The translations under genes were made by a program, and so were the position numbers. Source: a virus. From it: a stretch of 32,604 nucleotides of DNA. Under the pieces are notes generated by a model, which did not search any database, was not told the DNA's origin, and was given only the letters and a program-made list of their open reading frames with translations. Where the stretch lies: positions 1 through 32,604 of the IMG/VR virus record IMGVR_UViG_3300035698_005205, one strand, 5' to 3'. Each line of letters starts with the position of its first letter. The stretch's first letter is position 1. Shown here in pieces: positions 7,349 to 23,964 of the stretch.

Positions 7349-8085
7349 TTCCACCCCAAAAATTCGGACAATTCTGCATCGGTCATTTTTGACGGGTCTT
7401 TTTGTGACACATTTTTTGCTGAAACTGCTCCGGGGGCTTCGGCAAATGCCCCCGGATCGATTCCGAGTGTATTTATGCCGTATTGTTTCACCTGTTCTGC
7501 CATGGCGGTTAGTTTTTCAATAGCAGGGCTTTTCCCTGGGTCAAGTTCTGGGGCTATTCCCTCCCCGGACCTTATTGACTGCGCCTTTACGATGAGCCGA
7601 AAGTAATTTGAAATAGCTTTTTCCTGTGGAGCAGTATATTTACCGGTTCCAAGTGTTTTCTTTAGTTTTGCAAGTGCCGCCTGTGTCTTAATATTGTTTT
7701 CAGTTTTTATTCTTTCTTGTTCGGCAAAGGGTAGCTTTTTTGGAGTTGAAAGCGTTTTAGCTAAAGATACTTGCTGCGGAACGGGCATTCCTGATAACTG
7801 CTGTGCGGTAACTTTATCGCCCATCAGTCCCGTACCCGTAAGAGTTTCAGCGGAGCTTATCCTACCCCGCATATTTCGCATTGTATCGGCAAGATTTTTT
7901 TCCTGTTTGAATTTTTGCTGTTCAACCTGCCGCGCCGCCGCCGCTTGCTGCATCTTGAGCATTTCGTCCATTCGGTCTTGATATTGCTGTCGCTCGCCCC
8001 TCTGGGTTCTCCGTTGCATACCGGTATTAAACCCACGCATCAGACCGCCGACCCCTGAAAGTGCTGCTATTCCTGCGTTTGCCAT
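7345..8085 (-). CDS. Internal virion protein-like, coiled coil
   Basis: 246 aa from MANAGIAALSGVGG, with AGGTGAT 5 nt upstream of the ATG. The first 20 residues are hydrophobic and small (Gly/Ala), followed by GFNTGMQRRTQRGERQ and a Gln/Lys-rich coiled coil to about residue 80. The arrangement (short hydrophobic start, then long charged helix) is that of small podovirus internal/ejection proteins. No enzymatic motif is seen. It overlaps the downstream polyvalent gene by ATGA and follows the repeat-rich gene at 8094-9170. The three adjacent genes probably form the internal or ejection set. Confidence 0.7.
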   Translation of the reverse strand: MANAGIAALSGVGGLMRGFNTGMQRRTQRGERQQYQDRMDEMLKMQQAAAARQVEQQKFKQEKNLADTMRNMRGRISSAETLTGTGLMGDKVTAQQLSGMPVPQQVSLAKTLSTPKKLPFAEQERIKTENNIKTQAALAKLKKTLGTGKYTAPQEKAISNYFRLIVKAQSIRSGEGIAPELDPGKSPAIEKLTAMAEQVKQYGINTLGIDPGAFAEAPGAVSAKNVSQKDPSKMTDAELSEFLGWK

Positions 8086-15105: not shown

Positions 15106-15240
15106 TTAAATTTTATTCTCGTATCCGCATTTATTACACTTAATCCGTATCAACCCGGTTATTGATGATCTTTCCCCGGTGGTTAATTTAAAAAGTAATC
15201 TACCGCATTTTTTACATCTGACTTCGATCATTTCTGTCAT
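15106..15240 (-). CDS. Com-like zinc-ribbon protein
   Basis: 44 aa: VRCKKCGRLLFKL near the start, then LIRIKCNKCGYENKI at the end. The two CxxC pairs and the RLLFK and I-IKC motifs match the Mu Com zinc-ribbon family. Mu Com binds mom mRNA and opens its translation start. Other members of the family are simply small phage zinc ribbons. Its ATG overlaps the upstream stop as ATGA, and the gene ends just before the strong terminator. No mom-like modification gene is visible here, so the target is unknown. A role in translational control of this phage is possible but inferred. Confidence 0.7.
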   Translation of the reverse strand: MTEMIEVRCKKCGRLLFKLTTGERSSITGLIRIKCNKCGYENKI

Positions 15241-18702: not shown

Positions 18703-20820
18703 TCACCCCTGTACCGACTGTCCAAACTGTCCACCAACGCCTGGAAGTACACTAAGCCTTTTAGCTCCTGCGCCCTGAGTCCCTTCATTACCAATTCCGA
18801 GAGCGTCTTGTGTTCTTCCTGTGAGGATCTTTTGATAGGCCTTGTTTTCGGTGTCCGATTCAATTAGTTTCTCCTGTGTTTCGACCGCTTCTTCTTGCAG
18901 TCGGTGTAATTCCTTTTGCAATGGATTGATCATTTCACCAAGTTGTTTAAGCTGACCCTTGAGTTTTTCAATGGTCTGTATTTCTTCTTCCGAATACATC
19001 AGGTCATCGTACCTGGCATCCAAGAGGGTCCCGATTCGTCTCTGTGTCTTGATTGCATGCTCGATCCCTGCGGCGCCGTTCGGTATCGCCCACTCCAGCA
19101 ACCATTTCTGATGCTGCATTAAAAATTCAGCCTGCACGACTCTGGTATTGGGAGCCAGCCCGACATCAATTTCAATGTCAAAATCTTCGTCTATATTCCA
19201 AAGATCCTTGGGTATCTCCGTACCATCCGGTAAACTCTCAATCGTCGGCGGGTACATTTGATTGATCCGGATAAACTGTCGTATGATTTCCTCTGGAACA
19301 TCACCCAACACCCGGGCCCTAAACGCCTGCATCTTCTCGCCGGCACGTTGCAAAAGAGCGGTCCCGGTGGCGGTCTTTCCGTAGGCTTCGTCATCAATGC
19401 CCTGATTCAAACTGTTGACTCCGGTTTTCCGCTCGGCGTTCTGCTGTTTCAGTTCAAGCACCCTCAATGTGTGCTCGGTCGGTGGGGAGGGTCTAACCTC
19501 GTGCCAATTATCCTTTGTAACATTCTTGGCAAGGAGGGCGTCGCTGACCTGTCTTTCGTTCCAAGCGTTTATCAGGTCAACGTCCGTTCCGATCATCGTT
19601 CCATATGTGCTTTCCGCTGCAGCATCCGTAAAAATCCGCTCAAGGTTCGTCAGTTCCCGGTGGTCGTTGTATAAAACCAGCGGCAGACACTTCCCCTCGT
19701 ATCGGTGGGCAATCTCATACACCGCACCACTCTTGAACAGAGGCTTGGCGTATGGATTCTCAATAACTTGCATCACCACATCATTTCCACCCAAGGTCAC
19801 GATGACAGATTCAAGGAGGCCGTCCCCGTCAATGTCCATCTTGACGCAAACCTCGTACCCCCAAAACTCGTTTGCTGAAAGAAGTTTCTTTTCCGTGGTA
19901 GCTCTTGATCTTCCCGTCTCAGCTTCGTCATAGGTCAAATCATCCTGCTCAAACTGATCGGCTATTTCATTGTCCAACTCAGCACTGTCAACCTGAGTTG
20001 ATCCGACTTGATCCTTGAGTTTGTCATACGTGCCTTTCTTGTATTCCCCCAAGATTTCACGCTTCTTGGCTTCATCCAAGGAGAATTTAAACATATGGCC
20101 AATCAATGGCGCCTTCGTTTCGTCATTGTACCCGCTTGAAATTAAAAACTCCCACTGAGGCACGCACTCAAACACCGGCCCTGAATACGAGACGTCCCTT
20201 TTTGCTATATGCACATTTTCAAAAAATGTATCTGTTTCCATCTGTGGTATAGACATCTGTTCATAGCCAGCATAAAGATCCGGATTGATCTGTCCCGGCC
20301 GGACCTCCTCGACCTCTATAGCAGACAACACCGTTACATTCTCATCGGCTGTGAGTTGTTCCATCTGGTCTATCGATAGCCGATCATGCGTTTCTTTTTT
20401 TACAGAATAATATGTACTATGGTAAATCTTGAAAGTTCCATTATGGTAAAGAAGGCTGTCATGGATCCAATACCGCATTTGCTTCGTGCCGTTCTGTTTC
20501 CGGAACATCTGATATTGAATAACTTTTTTCATCAACTCAGCCCGGGCCTTGTCCGGCATCTTGATTGTGAAAAAATCAGGGTGTGAGAATATTGAGACTA
20601 AATCGGGTTTGCTCCATTCAACTGTATCAAAAACGATACTCGAAACCTTCTCCGACCATCCCTCTTGCTCGTTGCCGATCTTCGCCATGTTATACAAATT
20701 GTTCGCTTTCATCCGCTCATAGGACTTTTGTGCGTTCCAGTCTATGGCATCGTCGAGAAGCGGTTTGACAATCCGGATAATCTCATCGTCTTTTATTTTT
20801 AGGTGCTCGGTTTCAGGCAT
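18703..20820 (-). CDS. Portal protein (P22/SU10-type)
   Basis: 705 aa from MPETEHLKIKDDEIIRIVK. The N-terminal helices are followed by the clip/stem region, with the typical portal sequence GIDDEAYGKTATGTALLQRA and EKMQAFRARVLGDVPEEIIR around residue 480. Before it comes the wing pattern RYEGKCLPLVLYNDHRELTNL. A long coiled coil near the C-terminus (LKQLGEMINPLQKELHRLQE) is a P22-like barrel candidate. The end is Gly/Gln-rich. It forms the dodecameric DNA gate at one capsid vertex and binds terminase. The start overlaps the preceding gene by 8 nt. Length fits the family. Confidence 0.88.
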   Translation of the reverse strand: MPETEHLKIKDDEIIRIVKPLLDDAIDWNAQKSYERMKANNLYNMAKIGNEQEGWSEKVSSIVFDTVEWSKPDLVSIFSHPDFFTIKMPDKARAELMKKVIQYQMFRKQNGTKQMRYWIHDSLLYHNGTFKIYHSTYYSVKKETHDRLSIDQMEQLTADENVTVLSAIEVEEVRPGQINPDLYAGYEQMSIPQMETDTFFENVHIAKRDVSYSGPVFECVPQWEFLISSGYNDETKAPLIGHMFKFSLDEAKKREILGEYKKGTYDKLKDQVGSTQVDSAELDNEIADQFEQDDLTYDEAETGRSRATTEKKLLSANEFWGYEVCVKMDIDGDGLLESVIVTLGGNDVVMQVIENPYAKPLFKSGAVYEIAHRYEGKCLPLVLYNDHRELTNLERIFTDAAAESTYGTMIGTDVDLINAWNERQVSDALLAKNVTKDNWHEVRPSPPTEHTLRVLELKQQNAERKTGVNSLNQGIDDEAYGKTATGTALLQRAGEKMQAFRARVLGDVPEEIIRQFIRINQMYPPTIESLPDGTEIPKDLWNIDEDFDIEIDVGLAPNTRVVQAEFLMQHQKWLLEWAIPNGAAGIEHAIKTQRRIGTLLDARYDDLMYSEEEIQTIEKLKGQLKQLGEMINPLQKELHRLQEEAVETQEKLIESDTENKAYQKILTGRTQDALGIGNEGTQGAGAKRLSVLPGVGGQFGQSVQG

Positions 20821-21082
20821 CAATCCTCTCCGCTTCCAGCTTCCCGTTGGTCTGATTCGTGCCGATACTGTATCCCGGTGACTGCTCGCCCTTTTCGATC
20901 TCATCAAACAGGTGAGAATATCCGTAATACGTTATCCGGTTGTCCGCAAGGTTCGCCCGGGCGTCCACAATTATCACCTTGGACATAATTAGCTGCATCG
21001 TGACTATGTGCGATCGGATAAAATCGATGTCTACCTGGAAATACCCGCTCCGCTTTAATATCGCTGGTCGCTTGTTATCCAT
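20813..21082 (-). CDS. Hypothetical protein between terminase and portal
   Basis: 89 aa from MDNKRPAILKRSGYFQVDID. A central block (SHIVTMQLIMSKVIIVDAR, then ITYYGYSHLFDEIEKGE) resembles small proteins encoded next to portal genes in other podoviruses, where a VRAE or VDAR strand is followed by YTA-S-HF. The family has no assigned function. Its stop overlaps the portal start by 8 nt. Confidence 0.62.
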   Translation of the reverse strand: MDNKRPAILKRSGYFQVDIDFIRSHIVTMQLIMSKVIIVDARANLADNRITYYGYSHLFDEIEKGEQSPGYSIGTNQTNGKLEAERIDA

Positions 21083-21084
21083 GA

Positions 21085-21252
21085 TTACAGCCAATCCTCA
21101 AATATGATTTCTGATTTCACCGATTTCTGATTCTTAGTTGTGAAAATGCCAATCACCCACGGGGTTAAGACCCCCAAAACACACCCGGCCGCAAACATCA
21201 AATGCTTTAGTTTTCGGATGATTGCTTGCGTTATCGTCAAAAATCGTGTCAT
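21085..21252 (-). CDS. Small single-pass membrane protein
   Basis: 55 aa: MTRFLTITQAIIRKLKHLMF, then AAGCVLGVLTPWVIGIF as one membrane segment, and a short hydrophilic tail ending IFEDWL. The ATG overlaps the terminase stop (TAATG). Basic residues before the membrane segment suggest N-in topology. Possible roles include a lysis-related or membrane-modifying peptide, with no direct evidence. Confidence 0.6.
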   Translation of the reverse strand: MTRFLTITQAIIRKLKHLMFAAGCVLGVLTPWVIGIFTTKNQKSVKSEIIFEDWL

Positions 21253-22583
21253 TATGCCGCTAACCTAGGTCTTTTCCGCTTCGGTTGCGCTATCCTGCCG
21301 GCGATATCGTTTGTCATCTGCTCCACATTGGCCGCAATATACCTGAGAGTGTCGGCACCGTGGGCGTTTGGGTCCTTTACTGGAGCAGCGGTCGCTCCGG
21401 TCTGTCGATTGATGTGTCTCCGGTATCGTTTGACGCACTCAAGGAGTCTGTGAGATAAATCAGTATGATACACCTCTTTGAACTTAGATTCAGGGGGTTC
21501 CTTTGCAGCGCATTTATCTTTGTCGAAATACATCCTCTTAAATACTATCCTGGCGTTTCTGATACCTTCCTCGACTGATAACTCAACAATTTCATTGCGT
21601 TGGGTCACGTCCCACTCCAACCCGGACATTATATCGTAAGTTGATTTCCCCCCGGTATTCAATGCCCCTGAGAAACCATCGTGCGGAAGCCAGACGCGGC
21701 CCCACCTGTAAGGTCTTTCTCTTAGATCTGCGGATATGCTCGGTAAATCGGTATGGGAAACCTCAACGTATTCAATAACCCTAACCTCTGACGTGTGACG
21801 CTGCACCAGGGCGATACCAAGAGAATCCTCCCACCCAAGATCCATGACTAAATGCACGTTCAATGCAGTGTCGTGCGGGACGTTACAAATGCGCCCCTCC
21901 TGCTCTGCCAGTTGAATTTCCTTGAAATAAATGGCACCCTCAACCGCTGGCCTGCACTCACCCTCCCATATATTCGGGTAATCATCCGGATATGCAATTT
22001 TACAGTGCTGACGCTCCCTTTCCAGTACATCGTTAAAGAACGGGTTGTCTCTCCAATTTATCAGGGCATTTACGGTATCAGGCGGGGGGTTGATTGTGAA
22101 CTGTTCGTGGGTCGGGTCGGTTTCAAGGTCGGGGTTGTATGATATCCATATCTCAGAACTCATCTTTCGAATAGTTGGAATGAGGATTTTCCACGACTGG
22201 CGGGAGATGGTTTGTCCTTCCTCCACCCAGCAAATATCATAGCCCTCAAAGGATTTAATCGTGTCTATCGTCAACGTAGACAGACCTGTAAAGGCAAACT
22301 CAGTACCGTTTGAACCTCTTATCTCTGATTCAAGCACGGTGTAGAATGCTTCAAGATTAAGGAGTTTGATTTGATCTTTCAGAAGTTTATGAACGGATTG
22401 TTTGATTGAAAGCTGAACCTCTCTTGCACATAATATTCTGGTCTGTTCGGATACGCCCTTAACAAGCAAGGCCCGGGCAAATGACCACGACTTTGCAGAA
22501 CCACGGCCACCCCGCGCAACCTTGTACCTTGCTGGCTGAAATAAGAATCCGAGTTTCTTAGGTATTTGGGCTTTCAGTATCAT
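21252..22583 (-). CDS. terL: Terminase large subunit
   Basis: 443 aa, PBSX/Terminase_3-like. Walker A is GGRGSAKS (residues 25-32) and the Walker B-type strand is ICWVEEG (117-123), with the catalytic Glu pair. The C-terminal nuclease domain shows VMDLGWEDS (D248), LPHDGF (HD 301-302) and HGADTLRY (D411), as expected for the RNase H-like metal-binding acidic set. The enzyme cuts concatemers and drives DNA into the procapsid. The start overlaps terS as ATGA. Confidence 0.93.
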   Translation of the reverse strand: MILKAQIPKKLGFLFQPARYKVARGGRGSAKSWSFARALLVKGVSEQTRILCAREVQLSIKQSVHKLLKDQIKLLNLEAFYTVLESEIRGSNGTEFAFTGLSTLTIDTIKSFEGYDICWVEEGQTISRQSWKILIPTIRKMSSEIWISYNPDLETDPTHEQFTINPPPDTVNALINWRDNPFFNDVLERERQHCKIAYPDDYPNIWEGECRPAVEGAIYFKEIQLAEQEGRICNVPHDTALNVHLVMDLGWEDSLGIALVQRHTSEVRVIEYVEVSHTDLPSISADLRERPYRWGRVWLPHDGFSGALNTGGKSTYDIMSGLEWDVTQRNEIVELSVEEGIRNARIVFKRMYFDKDKCAAKEPPESKFKEVYHTDLSHRLLECVKRYRRHINRQTGATAAPVKDPNAHGADTLRYIAANVEQMTNDIAGRIAQPKRKRPRLAA

Positions 22584-22945
22584 ACCATTTCAATCTCAAT
22601 CTTTTCGACTTTGATTTGTCCCGAGTGTTCAACCTTTTCAATGAAGTCAGCTTCCGACCGGCCAAGAAGCTTGGACCCCTCTAACCTGTTCCGCATTTCC
22701 TCATCGGTGTCATCCATTGTGTGGGTCCAAAATTGTTGCCGTTGTTCCCTTGTTGCTATCTTTTTGCCGTTGCGTTTTCCCTCACGATTTCGGATAGCTT
22801 CGGCAATGTTCGGTTTTGTTAAGTTTTCTGCCCCGATGAATCGCGCGGTTTTTTCAGAGTATCCGGCTTTCAATGCCGCTTGTGTCGCATTCCCATCATA
22901 GAAATCAACGAAGCGTTGTTGCTTTGTGGTTAATGGTTTATCCAT
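22580..22945 (-). CDS. terS: Terminase small subunit
   Basis: 121 aa from MDKPLTTKQQRFVDFYDGN. The sequence LTTKQQRFVDFY, then NATQAALKAGYSEKTARFIG and NIAEAIRNREGKRNG, is the DNA-binding helix-turn-helix of Terminase_2-type small subunits. It recognises the packaging site and loads TerL. The start at 22945 overlaps the end of the upstream 30-codon gene by 8 nt. A longer TTG start (22969) adds an unlikely hydrophobic stretch. Confidence 0.9.
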   Translation of the reverse strand: MDKPLTTKQQRFVDFYDGNATQAALKAGYSEKTARFIGAENLTKPNIAEAIRNREGKRNGKKIATREQRQQFWTHTMDDTDEEMRNRLEGSKLLGRSEADFIEKVEHSGQIKVEKIEIEMV

Positions 22946-23030
22946 GAAACCACCGATCCATAAAATCAAAAATAACCGCGCTCACAATCGTAAACCCGGA
23001 GAGTTTGTTTGCAAGCTCTTTCTTATCCAT
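22938..23030 (-). CDS. 30-aa leader protein of late operon
   Basis: MDKKELANKLSGFTIVSAVI, ending in DFMDRWFHG. The perfect SD AAGGAGG at 23049-23043 is 12 nt from this ATG and only 5 nt from another ATG at 23037. That other ATG opens a four-codon ORF (MVDG, stop TAA at 23025-23023) that overlaps the start here. So the main start may be reached by re-initiation. It is the first real ORF of the packaging operon, and its stop overlaps terS by 8 nt. Confidence 0.5.
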   Translation of the reverse strand: MDKKELANKLSGFTIVSAVIFDFMDRWFHG

Positions 23031-23042
23031 CTACCATGATTA

Positions 23043-23085
23043 CCTCCTTGTGTGGGCCGACCCGGTAAGGAGGGCACGGGCCGGC
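23043..23085 (-). promoter_or_regulatory. Predicted SD-sequestering H-type pseudoknot in late leader
   Basis: In the minus-strand RNA, GCCGGCCCG (23085-23077) pairs with CGGGUCGGC (23064-23056), nine pairs with one G-U. The 12-nt loop (23076-23065) contains CCUCCUU, exactly complementary to the SD AAGGAGG (23049-23043). The connecting loops are UGC, AC and CCACAC, sizes compatible with an H-type pseudoknot. Folding would hide the ribosome site for the first genes of the packaging operon. Confidence 0.6.
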
Positions 23086-23161
23086 GTGGGGTTGATGAAT
23101 GGGGCTTGACGATAGATGCCCCCGATCAAACGGTATTCCTGCATATTCCTACGTTATCGTG

Positions 23162-23190
23162 ACCTTACGCTATATATTGTGGCTTGTCAA
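23162..23190 (-). promoter_or_regulatory. Candidate late promoter
   Basis: Minus-strand TTGACA (23190-23185) is a perfect sigma70 -35 element. A 17-nt spacer follows, then TAAGGT (23167-23162), a weak -10 with the key T, A and final T. It overlaps the stop of the accessory gene and would give a leader of about 120 nt before the packaging genes. Confidence 0.4.
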
Positions 23191-23579
23191 GAGCTTAAAC
23201 GGATTGAGCTGAATGAATTAAATATTTCTACTTCGGGCAGACAATGGAAAACATTCTCGCGGGGTCCGACAACAATGCACCGTTTCATCAATCCCAAAGC
23301 GATACCAAACTCGACATGCCGGCCGCCCCTGGAATTTGTTGAACGTGGTATTTCTGTGAAATTAATACAGATTTCTGAGTTCATTAAATCGTCGGTGTCT
23401 TCCGTTGCAAACCGTTCTCTTTCTTCCCATTGTGCTTCAACCGATAGACCGGCATCGTCTATCTGATGGCCCCCCCATATCCACCGGGACGTTATTTCAT
23501 GCCCATCTGCAATCAACTGATATGCATATCCTTGCAATTCTTTATGTCTGCTGTACCGTGCTGCCAAGTATATTTTCAT
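23187..23579 (-). CDS. Nucleoside 2-deoxyribosyltransferase-like protein
   Basis: 130 aa from MKIYLAARYSRHKELQGYAY, with AAAGGAG and a 5-nt spacer. The YLAARYSR strand-loop, an EITSRW strand and the C-terminal GGRHVEFGIALGLMKRCIVVG, then ENVFHCLP, fit the nucleoside 2-deoxyribosyltransferase-like/SLOG clan often found in phages. The conserved E (HVEFG) could be the catalytic nucleophile. Likely roles are nucleotide salvage or base exchange, or a signalling-type nucleotide sensor. Fold-level assignment is reliable; the activity is not shown. Confidence 0.72.
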   Translation of the reverse strand: MKIYLAARYSRHKELQGYAYQLIADGHEITSRWIWGGHQIDDAGLSVEAQWEERERFATEDTDDLMNSEICINFTEIPRSTNSRGGRHVEFGIALGLMKRCIVVGPRENVFHCLPEVEIFNSFSSIRLSS

Positions 23580-23601
23580 GTCAACTCCTTTGGTTTGGGT
23601 G

Positions 23602-23964
23602 TCACGATTCAAAATCATCCAGTTGATATATTTTTATCCTCGGCACCCATCTTTTCTGTTTACCGCCGCGTTTTTTAAGCAGCTTGCGCCAACCCCATAA
23701 CTCAAGAATAGCCCCGGCTTTCAGCCATTTAACTGAAAGATCACTTTCTAAGATAGTCCGGTTGTGTTCCGCAAACGCCTGCCCGCACGACTGAACACCC
23801 CTGATTGTTTGCCCGTCCAATGCTATAATATCGATTATGCCAAAAAGATCCTTCCTGAAGCCACCGCCAGGATGCACCGGGTTTGGTATCCACCTTTCAC
23901 AGACTTCGGCAATACACCCTTGATCACGCAGGGCCTTTAGGGTTCTTTGGGTGTTCTTAGACAT
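23602..23964 (-). CDS. PD-(D/E)XK-like protein
   Basis: 120 aa from MSKNTQRTLKALRDQGCIAE. The order helix, strand with VCERWIPNP, RKDLFGIIDIIALDG, IRGVQSCG, helix (AEHNRTILES), ILELWGWRK matches a common phage family with the PD-(D/E)XK fold. D at FGIID would be the metal ligand. The usual E-x-K is QSC here (VQSCG), so nuclease activity is doubtful or uses other residues. It is translated from the CGGGGGTGCG start module shared with the upstream gene, and overlaps that gene by 28 nt. Confidence 0.6.
   Translation of the reverse strand: MSKNTQRTLKALRDQGCIAEVCERWIPNPVHPGGGFRKDLFGIIDIIALDGQTIRGVQSCGQAFAEHNRTILESDLSVKWLKAGAILELWGWRKLLKKRGGKQKRWVPRIKIYQLDDFES

Follow-up and report, generated by a model that had tools for sequence, protein, structure and literature searches.

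A pseudoknot with the potential to cover the ribosome-binding site at the head of a phage packaging operon, read as a candidate translational dimmer

The leader of the packaging genes in a 32,604-base virus record (the whole of which is referred to here as the window) was found to have the potential to form an H-type pseudoknot in which the Shine-Dalgarno (SD) sequence is itself one strand of a helix. Three results come directly from the analysis: the leader can form the pairing, chance is an improbable source of it, and other phages carry a family of leaders of this design in which the pairs covary. Formation of the knot in vivo, a lowering of initiation by it, and low dosage as its purpose are what we infer. 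Judged from sequence, the element probably acts, though with no great confidence, as a built-in translational dimmer that needs no ligand and governs the start from which p30, terS, and terL would be translated in a coupled manner.

The predicted genes of the window lie mostly on the minus strand, and all elements of the knot are on that strand. The 9-bp stem S1 was present as originally predicted, with the 5' arm GCCGGCCCG (23077–23085) pairing with the 3' arm CGGGUCGGC (23056–23064) and including one G-U pair; its pair probabilities in the nested ensemble were 0.83–0.98. The S1 loop contains CCUCCUU (23067–23073), the 5' strand of stem S2, which was unpaired with probabilities of 0.75–0.98 in the same ensemble. 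This anti-SD is the exact complement of the SD AAGGAGG (23043–23049), which forms the 3' strand of S2 and lies 5 nt before the AUG. With the following T, the SD extends to AAGGAGGT (8 nt), the longest SD in the window, so that the 3' segment of the predicted knot would be the SD of a start codon, directly before its AUG. The linkers of 3, 2, and 6 nt were likewise found where they had been described, and a hairpin loop that pairs with a segment 3' of its own stem across such linkers has H-type geometry; linker feasibility was judged by the covarying phrog_11299 family described below, in which the third linker measures 4–7 nt.

S1 alone was calculated at −16.4 kcal/mol, and its stacks sum to −22.1 kcal/mol. 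The stacks of the 7-bp S2 amount to about −13.6 kcal/mol, while a nested alternative hairpin is also possible for the S2 pairing, at −12.8 kcal/mol. Taking a loop penalty for both crossings of approximately 7–10 kcal/mol, which is our estimate and not a computed value, these stack sums indicate that the knot should be favored over S1 alone by several kcal/mol.

The knot lies in the stretch that separates a 143-aa ORF (23187–23618) from the packaging genes. Both overlapping starts attributed to the SD were present: a four-codon ORF, MVDG* (23037–23023, minus strand), read directly from the sequence, and a 30-aa ORF, p30 (23030–22938, minus strand), with a codon score like that of coding frames. 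The stop of MVDG* overlaps the start of p30 as ATGGATAA, and the stop of p30 overlaps the start of terS in the same way. The terS gene (22580–22945, minus strand) was identified as Terminase_2 (PF03592, 3.4e-20; phrog_51, 3.1e-24) and is followed by terL (21252–22583, minus strand; phrog_3717, 3.3e-59), the start of which overlaps the terS stop, and by the portal gene (18703–20907). Since the SD matches of terS and terL comprise only 4 and 3 nt, respectively, p30, terS, and terL would draw their ribosomes through these overlaps.

Tiny ORFs directly before terS, of about 20–36 aa and often with one hydrophobic stretch, recur across several phages; besides p30 (22938–23030), which carries the ATGGATAA overlap at both ends, they were seen in L012 (251–361), L004 (2910–3008), L047, L058, and L020. 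Upstream of the knot, the promoter-like pair TTGACA-17-TAAGGT (23162–23190, minus strand) exists as described, but its −10 element is weak, with only three of six positions matching TATAAT, and it was missed by a stricter scan. For the pattern TTGACA-N16-18-TANNNT, 0.9 occurrences are expected in the window.

The pairing was compared with that obtained in dinucleotide shuffles of the leader. With the SD held fixed, a combination of S1 of at least 7 and S2 of at least 6 was reached in 0 of 20,000 shuffles, and at least 6 for both stems in 3 of 20,000. When the SD and anti-SD were both fixed, an S1 as good as the observed one arose in 41 of 200,000 flank shuffles; 1% of the shuffled leaders contained CCTCCTT itself. 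These nulls and thresholds were chosen with the feature already known. Approximately 40 starts in the window were open to inspection, and with these taken into account the chance result is still well below 1%. A chance origin of the pairing is thus unlikely, even with an ordinary minimum free energy for the leader as a whole (z = −0.74). A second H-type match in the window, at 7428 on the plus strand, was rejected as a plain palindromic hairpin; this hairpin, CCGGGGGC...GCCCCCGG (7428–7456), is strong and lies within a minus-strand gene.

Relatives of the leader were sought by several routes. In blastn comparisons with the retrieved relative loci, nothing alignable to the leader was obtained, and the pseudoknot part gave no significant match. 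Among the relatives from scans of viral contigs with TerL, TerS, and portal, neither an alignable leader nor a similar knot was seen; identities reached 66% for TerL and, with bacterial genomes included, 53% for TerS. The best TerS matches in bacterial genomes (53% and 49%) had no knot upstream, and a similar knot was absent from all retrieved TerS loci. The search of a phage collection by DNA and protein likewise returned nothing alignable to the leader, and the only exact 17-mer match in viral contigs (L097) proved unrelated. Against Rfam, no riboswitch or other family matched the leader at the gathering threshold or at E ≤ 5, and lacking a covariance-model match the leader is not assigned to the SAM/SAH, SAM-II, or preQ1 riboswitches. 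The open-access literature on pseudoknots associated with terminase, tail chaperone, or major tail protein contained nothing on this element.

The same design was then sought in viral contigs irrespective of homology, as an SD that precedes an ATG and has its complement at a comparable distance, after which the enclosing stem was scored; a third search pattern also required C and G/C just after the complement. An S1 score of at least 8 was obtained for 18 of 194 distinct CCTCCTT...AAGGAGG...ATG sites, compared with 0.6 expected from shuffled flanks, in a count that includes a few sites from protein-fetched relatives and ten non-independent sites of one family. The window site, which stands outside this count, scores 8.5, and its linkers fall within the range of the others. 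At this score, the false-positive share is about 0.6 of 18 sites, or approximately 0.6 of 7 when families are counted once. The SD-hiding knot design in phages is real and recurrent.

Ten of the 18 strong sites form one family, located in the leader before a protein of 145–155 aa (phrog_11299 in the two tested). The knots of L343, L211, and L117/L122 lie one or two genes after the major head protein (for L122, by likeness to L117), and that of L340 precedes the tape-measure protein, in the tail-chaperone position, before a gene unlike phrog_11299. L131/L138 and L344 do not follow this pattern of positions after capsid or tail genes. L131/L138 are weak examples because an alternative hairpin can form through CCTCCTAAAGGAGG at the SD. 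L113 was left out of the families, since its 5' flank is itself a terminator-like hairpin (GGCCGGAC-AAAA-GTCCGGCC). L344 has an SD-hiding knot whose S2 appears to reach 11 bp (AACACCTCCTT/AAGGAGGTGTT); the ORF that follows it starts at reverse-strand position 1712 and encodes 25 aa, including a hydrophobic stretch.

The most valuable by-product of the analysis is the family of covarying leaders that precede phrog_11299 genes. The phrog_11299-type gene follows a gene for a phrog_3099 protein, and by position the two products look like a tail-assembly chaperone and a major tail protein, respectively. Eighteen leaders, taken from relatives and pattern matches, made up the comparison set. Pairs 4 to 8 of S1 (five of nine) vary, and 124 of 126 cells are nevertheless paired. 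Double-change comparisons in S1 numbered 114, against a mean of 29.6 in shuffles, and this value was reached in 0 of 2000; the control consisted of dealing out the 3' arms anew and leaves shared ancestry in place. Two members, L257 and L260, carry AAAACGAAGG in place of AAGGAGG at the SD and CCTTCGTTTT in place of CCTCCTT in the loop, which is a concerted change in S2. Compared at the sequence level, the base pairs of this predicted knot have clearly been kept by evolution. Leaders of the knot family, together with L340, lie directly upstream of the start (L246–L248, L251, L253, L255–L257, L259, L260, L262, L265, L268, L304, L325, L330, L331, and L340). Where related leaders lack the knot, most of them have a simple hairpin in its position, in many cases followed by a U-tract. 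No Rfam family fits the phrog_11299 leader knot. The gene downstream of the window leader is terS and not phrog_11299, and the window leader does not belong to this family.

For the window, the mechanism would run as follows. The leader RNA would fold into the H-type pseudoknot with S1 of 9 bp and S2 of 7 bp, covering the only strong SD heading the packaging genes. Ribosomes would then enter at MVDG/p30 at a low rate, and terS and terL would be translated from this entry by start-stop overlap, a dimming that would serve proteins needed in few copies. Because such knots recur after abundant capsid or tail genes elsewhere, a fixed down-tuning seems more likely than sensing. What the sites have in common is a strong SD held down by a knot where copy number would have to drop, and it is on this basis that the window element is read as a fixed dimmer. 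The translational role put forward in the original prediction is partly supported: SD hiding is well supported for the class by covariation and the 18 of 194 sites, and statistically for the window copy by the shuffles. The covariation evidence comes from the non-homologous phrog_11299 family and not from the window copy. Besides the failure to find a homologous leader in any TerS or TerL relative, or such a knot in the retrieved TerS loci, two points count against a dimmer: the window knot stands at the head of its operon and not behind a gene for a major capsid or tail protein, and a very strong SD could simply be where ribosomes enter an operon that is well expressed.

Among the other explanations, a regulated switch, in which TerS, p30, the Com-like protein, a host factor, or a metabolite stabilizes or opens the knot and so times translation of the packaging genes, is considered unlikely. 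Known H-type pseudoknots that hide an SD are under ligand control, the SAM/SAH riboswitch being one of them (PMC7367207), and a pseudoknot in the gene 32 leader takes part in autoregulation in phage T4 (PMC3014915). A 44-aa CxxC...CxxC ORF is indeed encoded in the operon, between structural genes (15109–15240, minus strand), but its likeness to Com is weak, with the match to Zn_ribbon_Com (PF10122) at 18.3 bits falling below the cutoff of 22.9. With this, with no Rfam match, with no demonstrable extra conserved aptamer-like region, and with an S2 stable enough to form alone, no evidence was found for the suggested opening by a ligand, a Com-like protein, or ribosome pausing. The main mechanical rival to the dimmer, and a live one, is a translated leader, to which we assign a slightly smaller probability than to the switch. 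Here a ribosome on a 34-codon ORF (23144–23040, minus strand) would melt S1 and S2, stop at the SD, and feed MVDG, p30, and terS, the knot enforcing the coupling. This ORF spans the entire knot, its UAA directly follows the SD, and the downstream cistrons form an overlapping chain. Its codon score of 0.054 is borderline: it exceeds the off-frame 95% point (0.036), is close to the lower quartile for true frames (0.06), and is equalled by 5% of open shuffles. Against this reading, the ORF has a poor SD (only AGGA, two bases from its AUG) and a GC3 of 0.74 compared with 0.49 in the window's genes, and no homologous peptide was found among the retrieved relative loci.

A GC-rich leader that happens to hold complements and has no function is improbable, more so than either of these. 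The window copy has no comparative support of its own, the nulls were defined post hoc, and the folding energy of the whole leader is unexceptional; against this stand the absence of any equal among the 20,000 shuffles and the small empirical false-positive share at the window's S1 score. Cos and pac sites are often located at or near terS, and in this GC-rich region with inverted repeats such a packaging site or an operator could be the functional element, the RNA fold being a by-product. This DNA-level explanation is the least probable of all, since the two repeats interleave in pseudoknot fashion, one arm is exactly the SD, and no repeat family of the packaging-site type was found in 22560–23260.

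The dimmer reading can be extended to a broader proposal, which we put forward tentatively and with less confidence than the reading for the window itself. SD-hiding H-type knots may have arisen repeatedly and independently as fixed dimmers in late operons, in most cases separating an abundant capsid or tail gene from the low-copy gene downstream of it and sometimes replacing a leaky terminator hairpin, with the window leader as one case. Understanding is still partial of how phages obtain very different protein amounts from a single late transcript. If the proposal is true, a compact RNA knot that lowers translation of one gene, recurs in unrelated phages, and is supported by covariation in one family would provide a general and testable answer, and the knot would also be a useful part for expression tuning.

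Several known systems can be compared with the window knot. In phage Mu, a stem-loop hides the start region of mom and is opened by the small zinc-ribbon protein Com. The likeness lies in a phage RNA structure over a start region; in contrast to the window, the structure is a stem-loop and not a pseudoknot, and the Com-like candidate of the window remains under the Pfam cutoff. In the SAM/SAH riboswitch, also an H-type pseudoknot, the SD is part of the PK helix, and pairing hides the ribosome site (PMC7367207). Its OFF state resembles the window knot in that the loop pairs with the 3' end and the SD is hidden. However, its PK helix has 5 bp and is unstable without SAM or SAH (PMC7367207), whereas the window S2 has 7 bp, with no recognizable ligand pocket; being longer than this ligand-dependent helix, S2 should form without help. 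The gene 32 knot of T4, T2, and RB69 is also a phage mRNA leader pseudoknot affecting translation initiation. In T4, the knot is located some 67 nt upstream and seeds the binding of gp32, which then extends across the ribosome site; as described, and unlike in the window knot, its pairing does not involve the SD (PMC3014915). Alike in anatomy are the phrog_11299 leader knots (among them L246/L152, L259/L123, L262/L194, L248, L304, L257, and L260), which share with the window an S1 of about 9–11 bp, an anti-SD in the loop, short linkers, and an SD hidden directly before the gene; they differ in being non-homologous to the window leader and in preceding a gene in the tail-chaperone position rather than terS. 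The window knot is thus a new, non-homologous version of the known SD-hiding pseudoknots.
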